Part shown: one piece after another, positions 4,284 to 24,830 of the stretch
Position numbering within the stretch: position 1 is the stretch's first letter
How the letters are laid out: every line of letters begins with the position of its first letter
Source of the DNA: a virus
DNA: 37,671 bases
IMG/VR virus record: IMGVR_UViG_3300045049_000256
Coordinates: 1 to 37,671 of that record
Strand: one strand, 5' to 3'
The notes under the pieces: generated by a model
What the model was told of the DNA's origin: nothing
Database searches by the model: none
What the model saw: the letters and a program-made list of their open reading frames with translations, nothing else
Position numbers and translations under genes: made by a program

Positions 4284-6118
4284 TCCGTTTGCTCCTGGGA
4301 AAACTCGACGTAGCGCCGCGGAAAGTTACGGGCTTGCGAGCGGTATTGCATCGATGCCTCGTCAAACCAGAGGCTCCATGTGTATTCCTGATGCGTGCCG
4401 TAGCGAGACTTCTTCAGCACCAACTTCGCATCGATGCCGTTTTGCTTTTCTTGCCACTGCGCAAACTCTTCGTCGGTCGCGCCGATCGGGGGCGCCTTGT
4501 CTTTCGATGCGCGCCAGATGGAGAACACGTTGTCCGCGCCGTTGACAATTCCGCCGGCACCGGCCACGTCCATCTTTCCGGGCTCTTGGAGTTCGTCTCG
4601 GGTTTTGCGAGGGTGAGCGACGAGGTGAAAGTGAGCGTCGTGAGCTTTTTTGAACGCGACGATTTTTTGTACCGCCTCGTTCTGCTTGGTAATCGAACCC
4701 GGGCCATCTGCCGGTACGTCAATCATCATCAGGCTGTCGATGACGAAGTGACGAATGCCGTACCGCTTCGCTGCATACGCGAAGACCTCCAGCAAGCGAT
4801 CGAGTCTGGCGATGCCGACGAGATCGAAAATCCAGCAGCGATCTCGTAACCACGTACCTACGGCGCGGATGTACGCCTTCGATGGTCTGCGTAGACCCGT
4901 GGCCTGACGGTGCATGCGCTCCAGATGCTTGCCGGGCGGCATCTCACCGGAGAAGATGGCTATGCGCTCGCCCTGGTACATGAGGCCGAGCAGGATCTGG
5001 TCGAGCATCAGCGATTTGCCGTGCCCGTTGATCCCGGTCCAGCAGGTGTATTCCCCGCGGCGGAAGTAGAACCACGTCACCGCCTTGTCAAGTTCGAGGC
5101 TCGGATCGGTCGGCGCGCCCTCGGGCGGATGAATCAGCAATTCCACCTGGGCCGTGTAGTCGTCTGCGCTGCGCAGTTCTTCGGGATCGAGCGGCTTGGC
5201 ATCTTGCAGCGCGGCGTCGAAGTCGGAGCCGTCTGCACCGTCACGCAACCAGTCGTTCGCGTCCTTCACCGCGGCGCCACCATGTCCCACGCGCATGCGC
5301 CTGCAGCGCTCCAGGCCAAGCCGCGTCATCACCTCGCGCGCGCCCTTCTCGCCCGCCTCGTCGTTATCGAAGCACACTACGATGTCGCTGAACTGCTCCA
5401 GTCGCTCCCAATCGCTTTCGATCCATTGATGGTTGCCAGCGCCCTGGTTGACCGACAGCACGGGGCGGATGCCGACTTGGTACAGGGACATCGCGTCGAC
5501 CTCACCCTCGCAGATGACGAGCCGGCGCGCGTTTTGGTCGACGAGATGCCAACCGAACAGATGCGGCTCCGCATCCTTCTCCTGCCGCATGTCCTTTTTG
5601 TCATCGATGTTTCTGTACTTGCCGTTGACGTAAGAGCCATCCGGCAGGAGATATGCGAAGAGCGCGTAGACGCTGCTGCCGCGCGCAAGCTCAGCGACCT
5701 TGAACGCTGCGATGGTCTCCGGGGTCAGCCCCCGTCCCGTCAGCCATTCGAGCACCCGCCCTTGCGCGCGCTTCGCGCCTTGCGGCCTTTCCGGGCGCGT
5801 GTAGGTCCGCTTCGGCTGATTGCCCGGCATCGTGTCCCGGATGCCCAGGAAATCCGCGGCCTCCTTCATCGCGTCGGGCAACGTCATGCCGCGCGCCTTC
5901 ATCCACAGGTCAAGGAGGTCGCCCGCCTCTCCGGATTGGAAGTCTGACCACACGCCGGCCTTCTGGCCGCTCACGCACACGCACAGGCTTTCGCCCTCTT
6001 CGCCGCCGATGCTGCCCACCTTCCACTCGCGACCCTTGCGCTTGCCGTTCGGCAGAAGGTGGCGCGCGATGTCTTCGGCACGGTCGCGCATGCGGTCGCT
6101 CAGCTCTTTCGCGTTCAC
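4280..6118 (-). CDS. T7 gp4-type primase-helicase
   Basis: Bifunctional replication protein. Residues 200-216 (LVICEGEVDAMSLYQVG) and FDNDEAG at 250-256 are the TOPRIM primase core. Residues 362-369 (GINGHGKS) are the Walker A site of a RecA-type helicase, with Walker B HFVIDSL at 457-463 and a C-terminal NGADNVFSIWR motif. The N-terminal 60 residues occupy the place of the CHC2 zinc-binding domain but keep only two cysteines (CVCV), so template recognition probably differs from T7. The start is a GTG that overlaps the stop of the replication gene upstream (GTGA). At 612 residues it is of normal family length. It would prime and unwind DNA at the phage fork. Confidence 0.93.
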   Translation of the reverse strand: MNAKELSDRMRDRAEDIARHLLPNGKRKGREWKVGSIGGEEGESLCVCVSGQKAGVWSDFQSGEAGDLLDLWMKARGMTLPDAMKEAADFLGIRDTMPGNQPKRTYTRPERPQGAKRAQGRVLEWLTGRGLTPETIAAFKVAELARGSSVYALFAYLLPDGSYVNGKYRNIDDKKDMRQEKDAEPHLFGWHLVDQNARRLVICEGEVDAMSLYQVGIRPVLSVNQGAGNHQWIESDWERLEQFSDIVVCFDNDEAGEKGAREVMTRLGLERCRRMRVGHGGAAVKDANDWLRDGADGSDFDAALQDAKPLDPEELRSADDYTAQVELLIHPPEGAPTDPSLELDKAVTWFYFRRGEYTCWTGINGHGKSLMLDQILLGLMYQGERIAIFSGEMPPGKHLERMHRQATGLRRPSKAYIRAVGTWLRDRCWIFDLVGIARLDRLLEVFAYAAKRYGIRHFVIDSLMMIDVPADGPGSITKQNEAVQKIVAFKKAHDAHFHLVAHPRKTRDELQEPGKMDVAGAGGIVNGADNVFSIWRASKDKAPPIGATDEEFAQWQEKQNGIDAKLVLKKSRYGTHQEYTWSLWFDEASMQYRSQARNFPRRYVEFSQEQTE

Positions 6119-8325: not shown

Positions 8326-8538
8326 TCATTGCGTGCGGGCTTCCGTGCGGCCGCAGATGTGGTCACGGACGCGGCACAGGGTGGCGTGACCCGGGTTATC
8401 AATCTTTCCGTTGACGAACTTTGAGATCCACGACTGGCTGACCCCTGACAGGTAGGCGATCGACGGCCACTCGCCGCGGCACCGGTTGAGAAGGTCTTTG
8501 ACCTCGGAGATGGATACAGCGTCAGAAGAAGCTTCCAT
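8326..8538 (-). CDS. Cro-like helix-turn-helix regulator (70 aa)
   Basis: A small HTH protein: the segment WPSIAYLSGVSQSWISKFVN places the recognition helix (SQSWISKFVNG) after the turn, as in Cro/CI-type regulators. It is divergent from the repressor gene, with 72 bp between the two starts that contain a pair of matching operators, so it would be the first product of the lytic (leftward) promoter and the antagonist of the repressor. The ribosome site is weak (GGGG, one to four bases before ATG). The C-terminus lacks any further domain. Family membership is clear; the Cro role is inferred from position. Confidence 0.8.
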   Translation of the reverse strand: MEASSDAVSISEVKDLLNRCRGEWPSIAYLSGVSQSWISKFVNGKIDNPGHATLCRVRDHICGRTEARTQ

Positions 8539-8550
8539 GCCCCGATGGTA

Positions 8551-8586
8551 AGGAAAGAATTCCTAAAAGTAAAGGAAGACTTTCCT
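8551..8586. promoter_or_regulatory. paired immunity operators
   Basis: AGGAAAGAATTCCT (8551-8564) and AGGAAGACTTTCCT (8573-8586) share the form AGGAA-N4-TTCCT and start 22 bp apart, two helical turns. They lie in the gap between the divergent Cro-like and repressor genes. A third half-site pair, TTCCTAGGAA, abuts the second copy. Confidence 0.7.
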
Positions 8587-8610
8587 AGGAATGTTTGGCA
8601 TTCTCCGTCT

Positions 8611-8886
8611 ATGGCGAAAAGTGTGAACGACGTACTGGCGGAGAACATCGCGCGGTACATGGAGGCCAATCCCGAGCTCGGGACTCAGGCGCGCTTGGCG
8701 GCCCGGTCGGGCGTGGATCAAAAGACCATCAGCAACTATCTGAACCCGCAGCGCCGGCTAGCCACGGCCGCGGGGCGTCCAGGTTCGGCCAAGCTGTCGG
8801 AGGTGGAGAAGATCGCAGCGGCATTTGGTCTTGAAGCATGGGAACTGATCAAGCCGCTCAAGTCTCGCGTCCGTCGGGAACCATGA
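8611..8886 (+). CDS. CI-like repressor, short form (91 aa)
   Basis: The protein MAKSVNDVLAENIARYMEAN contains a helix-turn-helix (about residues 28-48: TQARLAARSGVDQKTISNYL) followed by a short basic linker and a helical end. It has no C-terminal peptidase domain, so it cannot be cleaved like lambda CI. The ATG at 8611 is chosen because the frame upstream, although open from 8545, runs through the two operators. The next gene begins one base after its stop. It would bind the AGGAA-N4-TTCCT sites, repress the Cro-like promoter and keep lysogeny. Induction must then come from another route, such as proteolysis or an antirepressor. Confidence 0.75.
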   Translation: MAKSVNDVLAENIARYMEANPELGTQARLAARSGVDQKTISNYLNPQRRLATAAGRPGSAKLSEVEKIAAAFGLEAWELIKPLKSRVRREP

Positions 8887-15518: not shown

Positions 15519-15565
15519 TGGTGGCCTGGGGCGGAATCGAACCACCGACACGCGGATTTTCAATC
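15519..15565 (-). other. attP core: 3' half of tRNA-Phe(GAA)
   Basis: On the minus strand the sequence runs from the anticodon loop (TTGAAAA, anticodon GAA) through the anticodon 3' stem TCCGC, variable loop GTGTC, T-arm GGTGG-TTCGATT-CCGCC and acceptor strand CCAGGCC to ACCA. The 5' side does not continue as tRNA: the expected GCGGA stem is replaced by unrelated bases, so this is not a functional gene. Phages that integrate into tRNA genes carry exactly such a 3' copy to restore the gene. With the integrase on one side and phage genes on both, it is attP rather than attL or attR. Confidence 0.85.
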
Positions 15566-15735
15566 AGTAGCCTACCCCAAAGAAATCAATCGGTTACGCG
15601 ACGATTCCTTTCGCCAGCAGCAGATGATAGCGACCTTGGAAGCCGCGCGGCGCCGTGAGCGTCGCTGAGAAGGCGAAAAGACTTCGCGAACTGACGCATC
15701 GATGCAGCGACGCCGAGGCAAGCCTGTGAGGCCCT

Positions 15736-16431
15736 GTGCGCTTATATTGGCGCCCGATGCCCTGGCAAGACACCTGGTCCGAAAGCTGCATTCTCAAGCT
15801 GCACGAGCGCGAGATTTACCCGCGCGCTGAGGCCCCGTACAGGTACATGCGCGAGTGGACCGGCGACATCGTTATCGAAAACCTCGGGCTCGATGATCGA
15901 GAGCGCGCGGGCGAGCGAGACTTCGCCGGCACGTTTTCGGTGATGGTGCTGGACTTGGAAAGTGCTGTGAATGAGCGCGAGTCTGTCTTCGAGGTGTTTG
16001 ACGCTCACCAGTCAACGATCGGGTACTTCGAAGCTCTCTATGAGGAGGACGCCAGCTTCAAACCAGGTGTCGTGAAGGTCGCCTTCGGGGGCGACGAGAG
16101 GTGGAGTCCCAATCTTCTGATCTTGGATCGCTTGATGATTCTAGAACGGCACCGCGGCAGTGGCCTCGGGCTGGAGGTGCTGGCGTCACTGATCGCCTAT
16201 TTTCGTACGGGGACTGGCCTGATCGCGATGAAGCCATTCCCGCTGCAATTCGAACATGACGCCGGGACGCGACCGAATTTCGAAGAGTTCGCGCTCGGCC
16301 GATTCACGAAGAGTGAGCGGTCATCCACGGCCGCTCTTCGACGCTATTACCGAAAGCTCGGCTTTCAGCTGGTGCCCGGAACAGAGTACATGGTGCTCAG
16401 CTCGGATGCGGACTTGCCTGACTTCCGCTGA
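15736..16431 (+). CDS. GNAT-like acetyltransferase, cargo gene (231 aa)
   Basis: The C-terminal half fits the GNAT fold: LLILDRLMILERHRGSGLGL gives the strand and the acetyl-CoA loop (R-G-x-G-L-G), and RRYYRKLGFQLV near the end is the usual 'Y-x-x-x-G-F' segment. The N-terminal 110 residues are acidic and unlike ribosomal-protein acetyltransferases, so the substrate cannot be guessed. The GTG at 15736 has GAGG four bases upstream; an in-frame ATG at 15757 has no ribosome site. It is the first gene right of attP and would sit at a prophage end, a usual place for lysogenic-conversion genes. Confidence 0.65.
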   Translation: MRLYWRPMPWQDTWSESCILKLHEREIYPRAEAPYRYMREWTGDIVIENLGLDDRERAGERDFAGTFSVMVLDLESAVNERESVFEVFDAHQSTIGYFEALYEEDASFKPGVVKVAFGGDERWSPNLLILDRLMILERHRGSGLGLEVLASLIAYFRTGTGLIAMKPFPLQFEHDAGTRPNFEEFALGRFTKSERSSTAALRRYYRKLGFQLVPGTEYMVLSSDADLPDFR

Positions 16432-16534: not shown

Positions 16535-16564
16535 ACAAAAAGAAACCGGCCCACGCGGGCCGGT
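16535..16564 (-). terminator. terminator of the SOS-linked leftward operon
   Basis: On the minus strand ACCGGCCC-GCGT-GGGCCGGT is followed by TTCTTTTTG. It lies about 100 bases after the last codon of the two-gene leftward operon. The intervening bases (16565-16665) hold no gene I can support. Confidence 0.8.
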
Positions 16565-16665: not shown

Positions 16666-17031
16666 TCACACCCAGCGCCAAGTCTCGGCCTTGCACTTGG
16701 CTTCTGACCTCTTAGCATCCTGGTAGTTGGTTGGTTCGCATTGCCACCGCTGGATCAGCCATCGGCGACGCCCAGCAATCTCTGCGCGTTCAAATCCGCT
16801 GAACGCGATTTCGGTGACATGGACGCTGCTCAATGTCGGGCGCCACAAAGTTGCAAGCGGCTTGGTCGTGGTTGATGCGCGCGTGTTCATCGCGAAATCG
16901 AGCGGCCACAACTGCAAAACCGGAACGTTGCGAACGGTATACGAGTAAAGCTGACCGAACCTCGGCCGCATCTCGCCATTGCCGGGCGTTGGCACCCCGC
17001 CGTCATAGCCGAAGCACACACGCACGTACAC
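16666..17031 (-). CDS. unknown second gene of the SOS-linked operon (121 aa)
   Basis: Beginning at the GTG at 17031 (AGG five bases upstream) the protein starts MYVRVCFGYDGGVPTPGNGE and continues with beta-rich segments (FGQLYSYTVRNVPVLQLWPL) and a basic, Trp-containing end (RRRWLIQRWQCEP ... ETWRWV). A longer frame reaches 17145 but its first part is only the shifted reading of the upstream gene. It starts eight bases after the stop of the 121-residue gene upstream and ends before a terminator. I recognise no family; if the LexA box controls the operon, it is a damage-induced phage protein. Confidence 0.6.
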   Translation of the reverse strand: MYVRVCFGYDGGVPTPGNGEMRPRFGQLYSYTVRNVPVLQLWPLDFAMNTRASTTTKPLATLWRPTLSSVHVTEIAFSGFERAEIAGRRRWLIQRWQCEPTNYQDAKRSEAKCKAETWRWV

Positions 17032-17038
17032 CGCCGCC

Positions 17039-17404
17039 TCACTCCGGCCGCTCGTAGACCTCGTCGTAGAACGACAGCCACAGCCTGGCGCTGGGCGGCG
17101 GCTCAAAGCCATCAAACGACGCCGCGCGCGCAGCTGCAGCTGCAACGTCCCATTCCGTGGTGATCGGGTCGGTGTCGGGGCCGCTCGTCTCCGCGTGCTC
17201 CTCGCGCTGCATGTAGCTGGCGAAGAACGCGACCTTCACGCCCTCAGCGCTGCCGAAGCGCTTCTCGAGCTCGCGCGCGAACCGCGACTCGATCGTCGCG
17301 CGATCAGCCGCCGGCAGCTGCGGCCAGTACATCAGCTCGACGGTGTAGGGGGTGTGGAATTGCTCGCTCAGCGCGGAGCGAGCGTTGCTGGAAGCCTCAT
17401 CCAT
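17039..17404 (-). CDS. unknown first gene of the SOS-linked operon (121 aa)
   Basis: An acidic 121-residue protein (MDEASSNARSALSEQFHTPY at its start) with a predicted strand-helix-strand middle (TVELMYWPQLP, then IESRFARELEKRFG, then VKVAFFASYM) and an acidic C-terminus (FYDEVYERPE). No known motif is visible. GGAG lies seven bases before the ATG, and a perfect LexA box lies 17 bases upstream of that ATG, so transcription should rise on DNA damage. The SRAP gene diverges from the same region. A DNA-damage response or prophage-induction role is inferred only from this control site. Confidence 0.65.
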   Translation of the reverse strand: MDEASSNARSALSEQFHTPYTVELMYWPQLPAADRATIESRFARELEKRFGSAEGVKVAFFASYMQREEHAETSGPDTDPITTEWDVAAAAARAASFDGFEPPPSARLWLSFYDEVYERPE

Positions 17405-17420
17405 GCTGACTCTCCAAATA

Positions 17421-17442
17421 CTACTGTACGAGCATACAGTAG
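17421..17442. promoter_or_regulatory. LexA (SOS) box
   Basis: TACTGT-ACGAGCAT-ACAGTA (17422-17441) matches the beta/gammaproteobacterial LexA consensus CTGT-N8-ACAG with perfect 8-bp symmetric arms when the flanking C and G are included. It lies between two divergent genes, 17 bases from one start codon and 71 from the other, and could control both. Confidence 0.88.
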
Positions 17443-17512
17443 AATTCGGTGGACTTGTTCCGCTTTACGCTGACGAACACACTGCTGCTGGGCATCGACT
17501 GCCCGGCAGGCT

Positions 17513-18436
17513 ATGTGCTACTCCGCGAAGATCGTTGCTGAATGGAAGAAGTACCAGCGCGCGTACGGCGTGGAGATCAGCGTCGAGGATTACTTCGACC
17601 TGTTTTGGCGTCGGCGGATGGGCGAGAAGATCAAGATTCCGAAGGGGATCGAAGATGGCTTCGCCGAGCCGGAAAACGCTCGTGAGCGCGAGATTAAAGC
17701 TCTCATCGATGAATGGCGAAGCACCGAGTCCACGCGACTCGAGCAAGAGCTTTTCAAGCAGCGCCGACGCCTTGCTGACGCTCAGCGGATTCTCGCAGCC
17801 AAGCCGACGAAGAAGGCAGCAGACGATCAGCGCATCGCGTCGAGCAAGACAGATCAGATCCTCGGTTGGCTTGAGGATTTGCAGCGCACCACGCCGGCAG
17901 AGCGCGATGCGCGCATCTACCCACAGCACTACTCGCATGTGATCGTGATGGAGGGCGGCAGGCGCGTGCTCAAGCCGATGCGTTACGGCTGTCGCCCCGC
18001 AGGCAAGCCGGCCTTCTACGACACGAAGTTCCCCGGCACGTACAACGCGCGCCGCGACAACCTCGAAGGGTTCTGGAAAGGGCAATTCGGCTACAGCCAC
18101 GGAATCATGGTCGCCACCGAGTTCTTCGAGAACGTCGACCGTGATGGCAAGAACGTCGTGCTGGAATTTCGGCCGGCGACGCGGCACCCAATGCTCGTCG
18201 CGTGCTTGTGGTCGCGGTGGACCGCACCAGGTGAGTCCGATCTTCTATCGTTCGCTGCGATCACCGATGACCCGCCGCCCGAGATCGCCGCAGCCGGTCA
18301 CGATCGTTGCATCGTGCCGATCAGGCCGGAGCACATCGACGCTTGGCTTGAACCCGGACGATCAACGCCAGCGTCGCTGCAGGTCATTCTCGATGACCGC
18401 GAGCGCCCTTACTACGAGCACCGGCTCGCAGCTTAG
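17513..18436 (+). CDS. SRAP-family (HMCES/YedK-like) protein
   Basis: SOS response-associated peptidase-type protein, a family that shields abasic sites in single-stranded DNA by a covalent bond to Cys2. Visible residues fit: C2 (MCYSAK), N178 (TYNARRDNL), E206 (TEFFEN) and H263 (GHDRC). At 307 residues it is longer than YedK; the extra part is a charged helical insertion at about 45-135. The ribosome site is weak. It diverges from the unknown operon across the LexA box. It may protect phage DNA during damage-induced replication. The family call is firm; control by the box on this side is inferred. Confidence 0.88.
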   Translation: MCYSAKIVAEWKKYQRAYGVEISVEDYFDLFWRRRMGEKIKIPKGIEDGFAEPENAREREIKALIDEWRSTESTRLEQELFKQRRRLADAQRILAAKPTKKAADDQRIASSKTDQILGWLEDLQRTTPAERDARIYPQHYSHVIVMEGGRRVLKPMRYGCRPAGKPAFYDTKFPGTYNARRDNLEGFWKGQFGYSHGIMVATEFFENVDRDGKNVVLEFRPATRHPMLVACLWSRWTAPGESDLLSFAAITDDPPPEIAAAGHDRCIVPIRPEHIDAWLEPGRSTPASLQVILDDRERPYYEHRLAA

Positions 18437-18957: not shown

Positions 18958-19410
18958 ATGCCGATTCCGGCATTGGATGGTCACGGCCTACTCCCGGTAG
19001 GCATTCATGATTGCACATGGCCTGAGGTCGAAGAGCGCTTCTGCTGGAATGCAAAGCGTGTCGAAATATTCGGCAAGCTGACGGACTTCTTAGCCCAGAG
19101 ATGGGCACCCTTGAATCTGAACTTGCCGATCTTCGTCGACGGCAGTTTCACCAGGCAGACAGACACGCCAAAGGACGTCGATATCGTAATTGACGCATCC
19201 GTCGTCGACGCCGCCGCGATAGTCCCTGTTTACCTGCTTTGGTTCGTTCGTGATGAAATCAAAGCGAACTTCATGGTTGACTTTTGGTTCAAACATCCGT
19301 CATTGCCGACCGATCTCTCCGCGTATTTCTGCTATACCGGATTGAAAGCCGGCGCGGAGCTTGGCCTTGACGCCAAGCACCCTAAAGGCATACTGCGAGT
19401 CAATCCATGA
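18958..19410 (+). CDS. DUF6932-like nucleotidyltransferase-fold protein (150 aa)
   Basis: The opening (LPVGIHDCTWPEVEERFCWN) and the motif IFVDGSFTRQTDTPKDVDIV match a family of small nucleotidyltransferase-fold proteins: Gly-Ser at 62-63, the metal-binding pair D73 and D75, and a possible third Asp at 108 (VDFWF). Such proteins may transfer a nucleotide to a protein or tRNA, as MNT- and AbiE-type toxins or antitoxins do, but the substrate is unknown. GGGAGGAG lies a few bases before the ATG. The stop overlaps the next gene's start (ATGA), so the two act as a unit. This pair is more AT-rich than the surrounding phage genes, which suggests separate acquisition. Confidence 0.75.
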   Translation: MPIPALDGHGLLPVGIHDCTWPEVEERFCWNAKRVEIFGKLTDFLAQRWAPLNLNLPIFVDGSFTRQTDTPKDVDIVIDASVVDAAAIVPVYLLWFVRDEIKANFMVDFWFKHPSLPTDLSAYFCYTGLKAGAELGLDAKHPKGILRVNP

Positions 19411-23525: not shown

Positions 23526-24830
23526 TCAGTACGTCATGCCCTGGGCGTACCCAAGTGACTGCAGAATCGGAAGCTCTTTCTTTATCCGCTCGCCGATGTC
23601 GGTTCGATACATCGGGGAGTTGGGAATCTCGATGCCCTTGAGAACGTCGTAAGCCTTCTTGGCCGACGCGGACACAGAGGACGCTGTGCCTGTCGCCACG
23701 AGCAAGTAGGAGCCCGCCGTCACCCAGCCGGGCATGTCCACGACCTTCCCGCCAGCCTGAATCGGCACCGTCCCCGCCATCACCTCGCACGGGTGGATGT
23801 TCTCGTTCATGTCCGAGTAGATCGGAATGCCCGTCGTGTCCTCACGCGGGACCTTGTTGTAGGGGAAGTCAGGTATGGCACACACCACGCCCGTTGCGAT
23901 GTCCTTGGACACCTCAAGCGAGTCATACCCTGCGAGCAGGTCTGCCATCCAGGCCGCGGGGTCACCTTGGTGCAGGGCCGTGGCGATCTGAAAATGCGGC
24001 CACCCGAATCGAGCGGTGAACTCCATCGGATACGGAGTGCCGCTTTCATCAATGATGACCGCCACGTCGATGAACCCCGTGTAGCCGATCTTGAACAAAT
24101 AATCTGTGACCGGGAACAGAACTTTGTCTGCGAGCTTGGACTTGTCCACGTAGCGCAGGACCGTGCCCATCTCGCCCGTGTTCACGCCCTTGTCGCCGTT
24201 CATCAGCTTCTTGTGTTCCCAGTTCTCATTGATTGCATGATTCCAGCCACCCGGGCCGAACCATCCACCGACGGCCATTTCCACGCCGGGGCAGAACTCT
24301 TGCAGGATGAACGGGGCTTTCGCCTTCCCGAGCTTCTTCCATCGGCGAAGCATGTAGATCATGTCCTGCGGGGACTTGCTCACGTAAGACAGAGCCTTGT
24401 CCACATCAGCCGAGGGCTTGGACACGAATCGCCCCATGGTTTTGCGCACATAGGCTTCGGCCGAGTCGTAGTCGTTGAAGGTCTTGTAGGGCAGCGTGTC
24501 GATGCCGGCGTCCTTGAACACCTTCTGACCGACTGACCGGTCCAGCTCCATCGCCTGCCCGGCAAGATTCGCTCCAAAGATCGGATAGCCGTACTTGCGG
24601 TAGCCCTCAAGTGCCTGGATATAGCGGGTGTTGTCGGACAGCACCGTGAGTTCCGACCAGCGCATCCACTTCTGCCAGTCGTTCACCCGCTCGACAAGGC
24701 CGTCCCCGATGGGAATCCGGTTGCCGTTCTTGTCGGGGGCGATGAACCACTTGACCTCGTGACCCCACTGCTTGCAGCGAAGGGCGAAGTCCAGAAAGTT
24801 TCCGCCGCAGTCGATCAGAAGGATTTTCAT
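23526..24830 (-). CDS. PurD-like ATP-grasp protein in the tail region (434 aa)
   Basis: The fold is that of glycinamide ribonucleotide synthetase (PurD): N-terminal strand and turn MKILLIDCGGNF, ATP-grasp strand FILQEFCPGVEM (about 174-185), the signature NGDKGVNTGEMG (211-222) and the metal-site strand MEFTARFGWPHFQ (269-281). In PurD the last motif reads E-x-N-x-R-F-G-D-P-E, so the metal-binding Asn and the following D-P-E are changed here to Thr and W-P-H. Length is normal for PurD. The ATG is coupled to the preceding ejection gene by ATGA. Purine synthesis is one option, but its place among virion genes suggests a ligase that modifies a virion or host molecule. Confidence 0.82.
   Translation of the reverse strand: MKILLIDCGGNFLDFALRCKQWGHEVKWFIAPDKNGNRIPIGDGLVERVNDWQKWMRWSELTVLSDNTRYIQALEGYRKYGYPIFGANLAGQAMELDRSVGQKVFKDAGIDTLPYKTFNDYDSAEAYVRKTMGRFVSKPSADVDKALSYVSKSPQDMIYMLRRWKKLGKAKAPFILQEFCPGVEMAVGGWFGPGGWNHAINENWEHKKLMNGDKGVNTGEMGTVLRYVDKSKLADKVLFPVTDYLFKIGYTGFIDVAVIIDESGTPYPMEFTARFGWPHFQIATALHQGDPAAWMADLLAGYDSLEVSKDIATGVVCAIPDFPYNKVPREDTTGIPIYSDMNENIHPCEVMAGTVPIQAGGKVVDMPGWVTAGSYLLVATGTASSVSASAKKAYDVLKGIEIPNSPMYRTDIGERIKKELPILQSLGYAQGMTY

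Follow-up and report, generated by a model that had tools for sequence, protein, structure and literature searches.

Organization of the SOS-Associated Locus

We analyzed a stretch of 37,671 nucleotides, hereafter the window, which is a linear virus contig from IMG/VR (record IMGVR_UViG_3300045049_000256) and possibly incomplete. It carries temperate-phage genes, namely those for capsid, portal, terminase, primase/helicase, excisionase and integrase. The features relevant to this study are as follows:

8545–8886, plus strand: putative phage repressor, helix-turn-helix (HTH) only, no S24 peptidase
15519–15567, no strand assigned: sequence resembling the 3′ end of tRNA-Phe, likely attP
16545–16564, minus strand: terminator-like hairpin with a T-rich tail, downstream of ORF2
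16666–17031, minus strand: ORF2, second gene of the operon, 121 aa, GTG start at 17031
17039–17404, minus strand: ORF1, an acidic protein of 121 aa (net charge −11) from an unnamed family associated with LexA boxes
17421–17442, no strand assigned: LexA (SOS) box whose 8-bp arms match perfectly, core 20-mer at 17422–17441
17513–18436, plus strand: SRAP gene of the MCYSA type, 307 aa, PF02586, divergent from ORF1

The tRNA-Phe-like sequence showed a 91.7% match with Rhodovulum phage RS1, and since this probable attP lies inside the record, the contig likely derives from a circular or concatemeric form of the phage. The box and the genes on its two sides are located across the tRNA-Phe-like sequence from the integrase, among accessory (cargo) genes. 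A weak GNAT acetyltransferase-like gene (15736–16431) is convergent with the operon terminator, and a DUF6932 protein gene (nucleotidyltransferase-like, 18958–19410) adjoins SRAP in the same cargo region.

The operon had been described from the sequence as two genes of unknown function. Neither protein has a match in Pfam, PHROGs or NCBIfam, and either one used as a single query retrieved nothing from viral contigs, so that both are indeed unannotated; ORF1, on the other hand, turned out to belong to a conserved family. ORF2 has a codon-position GC of 0.54/0.54/0.70, and searches of phages, viral contigs and 251 genomes yielded no relatives of it.

The SRAP Gene

The assignment of the divergent gene to the SOS response-associated family was upheld by the Pfam profile PF02586 (68.4 bits against a cut-off of 27.1, E 8.3e-19). 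Its product retains the catalytic Cys2, Asn178 (NARRD), Glu206 (FFEN) and His263 (HDR), which are invariant in six full-length-aligned SRAPs of the same type; all six also share the extra region that follows the N-terminus, between Cys2 and the core. There is no further in-frame start upstream of the gene after the stop at 17471.

SRAP genes have been associated with umuDC, imuAB-dnaE2 and dinB (PMC3765255). A perfect CTGTN8ACAG was present within 300 bp upstream of 6 of the 30 Burkholderiaceae SRAP genes of this type, and one of these six stands opposite umuDC. SRAP relatives in three viral contigs (L004–L006) face a umuD-like gene. In L004 (umuD-like gene at 4511–5120) and L005, the palindrome TTAGTACAATT(A/G)CTAA lies between the two genes; judged by eye, it resembles a LexA box of the Xanthomonas type.

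A Perfect LexA Box Between the Divergent Genes

The segment 17421–17442 reads CTACTGTA-CGAGCA-TACAGTAG, an 8-bp perfect inverted repeat whose core 20-mer (17422–17441) is TACTGTACGAGCATACAGTA. It fits CTGT-N8-ACAG, the SOS box of most Betaproteobacteria (PMC6595937). The start of ORF1 lies 17 nt from the box, in agreement with the preliminary description, and the SRAP start lies 71 nt away on the opposite side. The window has one further CTGTN8ACAG, located at 24104 within the structural-gene region.

With a 20-bp matrix derived from 49 distinct boxes at other loci, the window being excluded, the box scored 24.55 bits, while the second-best place in the phage reached 4.91. The best scores in 60 simulated sequences of 37.7 kb had a mean of 8.7 (sd 3.1) and a maximum of 17.2. 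The top matrix matches included no direct LexA site in the phage immunity region.

Two hexamers that could be read as −10-like elements, TAGTAT (minus strand) and TAGAAT (plus strand), flank the box. A generic promoter scan reported no promoters, however, so bidirectional repression is putative.

ORF1 Belongs to a Family Found in Burkholderiaceae

The first lead to relatives of ORF1 was a weak match in Acidovorax phage Aval (34% identity, E 3e-3), which has a perfect LexA box directly upstream. ORF1 and the Aval protein pooled together retrieved a chromosomal gene of Acidovorax sp. sif1233, which likewise follows a perfect box, and a profile of these three members detected relatives in 73 of 400 Burkholderiaceae genomes. 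A phylum-wide sample of 398 genomes yielded seven matches, all in genomes already contained in the Burkholderiaceae sample. By sequence, ORF1 is thus a member of an unnamed family of single-domain proteins of ~100 aa, found phylum-wide only in Burkholderiaceae and present also on plasmids and phages of the Burkholderia/Acidovorax group; we infer the phage host solely from this taxonomic spread. Our search of the open-access literature found no paper naming the family.

Because the earlier profiles contained the window itself, a check profile was rebuilt from 76 members with the window left out. Against the six-frame open frames of the window it recovered ORF1 at E 1.1e-16 (57 bits), and none of 300 shuffles scored. 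ORF1 is long-branched in the family tree, with a best identity of 36%. For the contig scan, an alignment of 23 sequences proved too diverse, and a closer subset was used instead.

The predicted fold of ORF1 is beta-alpha-alpha-alpha-beta, a two-stranded sheet with three helices (pLDDT 84.7), and the same arrangement was predicted for an Acidovorax member (pLDDT 88.5). Searches of the PDB with both models gave no confident match: the best Foldseek E was about 1, the best VIA match had Z 4.9 and an rmsd of 5.2 over 66 residues, and a PDB profile search produced chance-level matches only. Two uncharacterized phage proteins were retrieved from BFVD (E 4e-3 and 1.5e-2). A missing structural match is not evidence for a new fold, but it means that the mechanism cannot be read from structure. 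Most family members are acidic (median pI 4.6), the Aval protein being an exception with a pI of 11.6.

LexA Boxes Recur Across the Family

Far from being consistently absent from homologues, a box with no more than one mismatch was found within 150 bp upstream of the assigned start at 54 of 72 family loci, and a perfect one at 40. These counts are descriptive, since the rows are related to one another and a simple Shine-Dalgarno rule served to assign the starts. Among 2517 control windows taken from these loci, 63 (2.5%) contained a box by the same mismatch limit and four (0.16%) a perfect box. The median spacing between box and start was 21 nt.

Mapped onto a 79-member tree, the box label requires 6 changes, compared with 20.8 when shuffled. 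One large group has the box in 36 of its 37 rows, and in the exception, L057, the box is located inside a mis-called start. At three other loci the distance from a perfect box upstream was 748 nt (L093), 461 nt (L098) and 134 nt (L054). A distant subgroup of 13 tree rows (L065, L067, L069, L070, L072, L074, L076–L078, L080, L082, L085 and L086) lacks any perfect box within 1 kb, and SOS control therefore does not extend to the whole family. Several members of this subgroup seem, by eye, to stand beside glycine-cleavage or dioxygenase-like genes. The conservation of the box upstream of ORF1 relatives in other genomes supports the LexA control proposed from the phage sequence.

Genomic Neighbors of ORF1 Relatives

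SRAP and/or umuDC are located near family members in prophages and at other loci (L035/L087, L050, L051, L057, L093, L095/L096 and L097). L057 reproduces the order of the window, with SRAP and the ORF1 relative diverging from the box, and its SRAP frame contains a stop. In Variovorax paradoxus VAI-C, SRAP likewise faces an operon with an ORF1 relative across a LexA box; this SRAP-facing Variovorax relative is located on a megaplasmid. On the Polaromonas plasmid pH6NP1, the ORF1 relative adjoins umuD and a Y-family polymerase, the box lying between the family gene and umuD and not before the family gene. Within the window itself, no match to umuC or umuD, and hence no umuDC/Pol V operon, was found.

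Many other members are solitary, without SRAP or umuDC, or lie among metabolic genes; of ten flanking proteins tested, eight had a chromosomal character and two were phage- or plasmid-like. In Variovorax (L145, 3311–3520) and in Aval (L002, 897–1088), the ORF1 relatives are followed downstream by a small gene whose product has a similar terminal HIRAV(F/M)Y motif, which suggests another shared component of the SOS operon.

The Phage Repressor and Prophage Induction

The preliminary description stated that the phage repressor lacks a peptidase domain, and this was borne out: no S24 peptidase was found in the six frames of the record, which is possibly incomplete. At 8326–8886, a small Cro-like HTH frame on the minus strand faces the HTH repressor on the plus strand, and palindromic operator-like repeats are located at about 8550–8592. 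The operon is about 8 kb from the repressor gene and outside the immunity region.

Among nine phage records carrying the ORF1 family, five encode an S24 protein of the self-cleaving type, including Aval, where it is a 223-aa open frame; in one of the five, G787, one of the two matches is umuD.

Proposed Role of the Cassette

The box, the gene layout, the ORF1 family and the recurrence of both the box and the SRAP or umuDC neighbors emerge directly from sequence comparison; LexA binding and induction at the box would follow from them. Boxes at most family loci, together with the recurrent neighbors, support SOS control and a role in DNA-damage tolerance. We consider it somewhat probable that the locus is temperate-phage cargo under SOS control, a cassette in which SRAP and ORF1-ORF2 are repressed by LexA and ORF1 is an accessory factor of damage tolerance. 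Host LexA bound to the single box, which abuts two putative divergent promoters, would keep both SRAP and ORF1-ORF2 off; upon damage, RecA filaments would trigger LexA self-cleavage and both units would be transcribed, in the lysogen and probably also during post-damage phage growth. Like YedK and HMCES, the phage SRAP would be expected to bind abasic sites in single-stranded DNA and to shield them. ORF1 would most likely assist the damage-tolerance machinery as an accessory factor that binds other proteins, a guess from its genomic context, with the RecA filament, UmuD/UmuC and SRAP as candidate partners. More tentatively, ORF1 may represent a new class of SOS effectors of Burkholderiaceae that also occurs in phages and plasmids. 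Such an effector would modulate either the mutagenic polymerase or the RecA filament directly, and the phage would pair it with SRAP so that damaged DNA stays replicable during induction.

The preliminary description offered two roles for the operon, a link between DNA damage and prophage induction or the protection of DNA. The former would resemble the Gifsy phages and phage 186 Tum: ORF1 and/or ORF2 would be a LexA-controlled antirepressor of the non-cleavable HTH repressor. In Gifsy phages the repressor is not cleaved; it is displaced by LexA-controlled antirepressors whose genes lie outside the immunity region (PMC3121763), and the window has both a repressor candidate without S24, with none elsewhere in the record, and a LexA-controlled operon of small genes placed in the same way. 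The lack of relatives of ORF2 is likewise expected for a fast-evolving, phage-specific antirepressor. However, the absence of S24 is judged on a possibly incomplete record, and nothing ties ORF1 or ORF2 to the repressor. Nor is the ORF1 family restricted to phages with non-cleavable repressors: it has chromosomal and plasmid members behind the same box, among metabolic genes and on the Variovorax megaplasmid, and others in S24-encoding phages such as Aval. As judged from the flanks examined, the family lies largely outside prophages, and this, together with the S24 phages, makes the antirepressor case weaker for ORF1, for which the link between damage and induction is not supported; ORF2 could be the better candidate. 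Overall, we regard an antirepressor function of the operon as unlikely. Protection of DNA fits better, since the family recurs beside SRAP or umuDC.

The same neighbors bear on the idea that ORF1 is an SOS-induced brake on growth or cell division, a lineage-specific checkpoint protein comparable to SulA, YneA or SosA. Known SOS division inhibitors differ between lineages, and a small, LexA-controlled, taxon-restricted family would fit this pattern, but the recurrent neighbors are SRAP and umuDC rather than division genes, and ORF1 matches no known inhibitor in Pfam or NCBIfam, which leaves a division brake quite unlikely. We find it very improbable that SRAP is the sole meaningful SOS gene here, with ORF1-ORF2 being incidental cargo that shares its promoter region. 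SRAP is a known SOS-associated gene and related SRAPs have boxes without an adjacent ORF1; yet ORF1 relatives have their own box where SRAP is not near.

Comparison with Known Systems

The proposed damage-tolerance cassette resembles the SOS cassettes of the SRAP/YedK/HMCES type (PMC3765255) in its SRAP with catalytic residues, its LexA box and a divergent or adjacent SOS partner; it differs in being phage-borne and in having, in place of a translesion polymerase, a small partner protein from an unnamed family. With Gifsy GfoA/GfhA (PMC3121763) and Tum of phage 186 it shares a LexA-controlled small gene outside the immunity region and a peptidase-less repressor, whereas the ORF1 family is also chromosomal, plasmid-borne and present in S24-encoding phages, and an antirepressor role is only putative here. 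The DdrR-UmuDAb pair of Acinetobacter (PMC7273328) is similar in that a small, lineage-restricted, damage-induced protein shares its operator with a divergent SOS gene and has a functional link to umuDC; that system is LexA-independent and belongs to another genus, and the likeness is one of arrangement and regulation. The gp48c-gp46c genes of Acidovorax phage Aval (OP131589) are alike in that gp48c is the ORF1 relative with a perfect LexA box directly upstream, but no SRAP is annotated in the stretches read, the second and third genes have no match to ORF2, and the phage encodes S24.

Descriptions of SOS regulons often center on well-known genes, while here an unnamed family of small proteins has a box at most of its loci. 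The ORF1 family thereby offers concrete targets for studying damage survival in Burkholderiales and their mobile elements, and bears on the question of whether induced phages recruit host damage tolerance.
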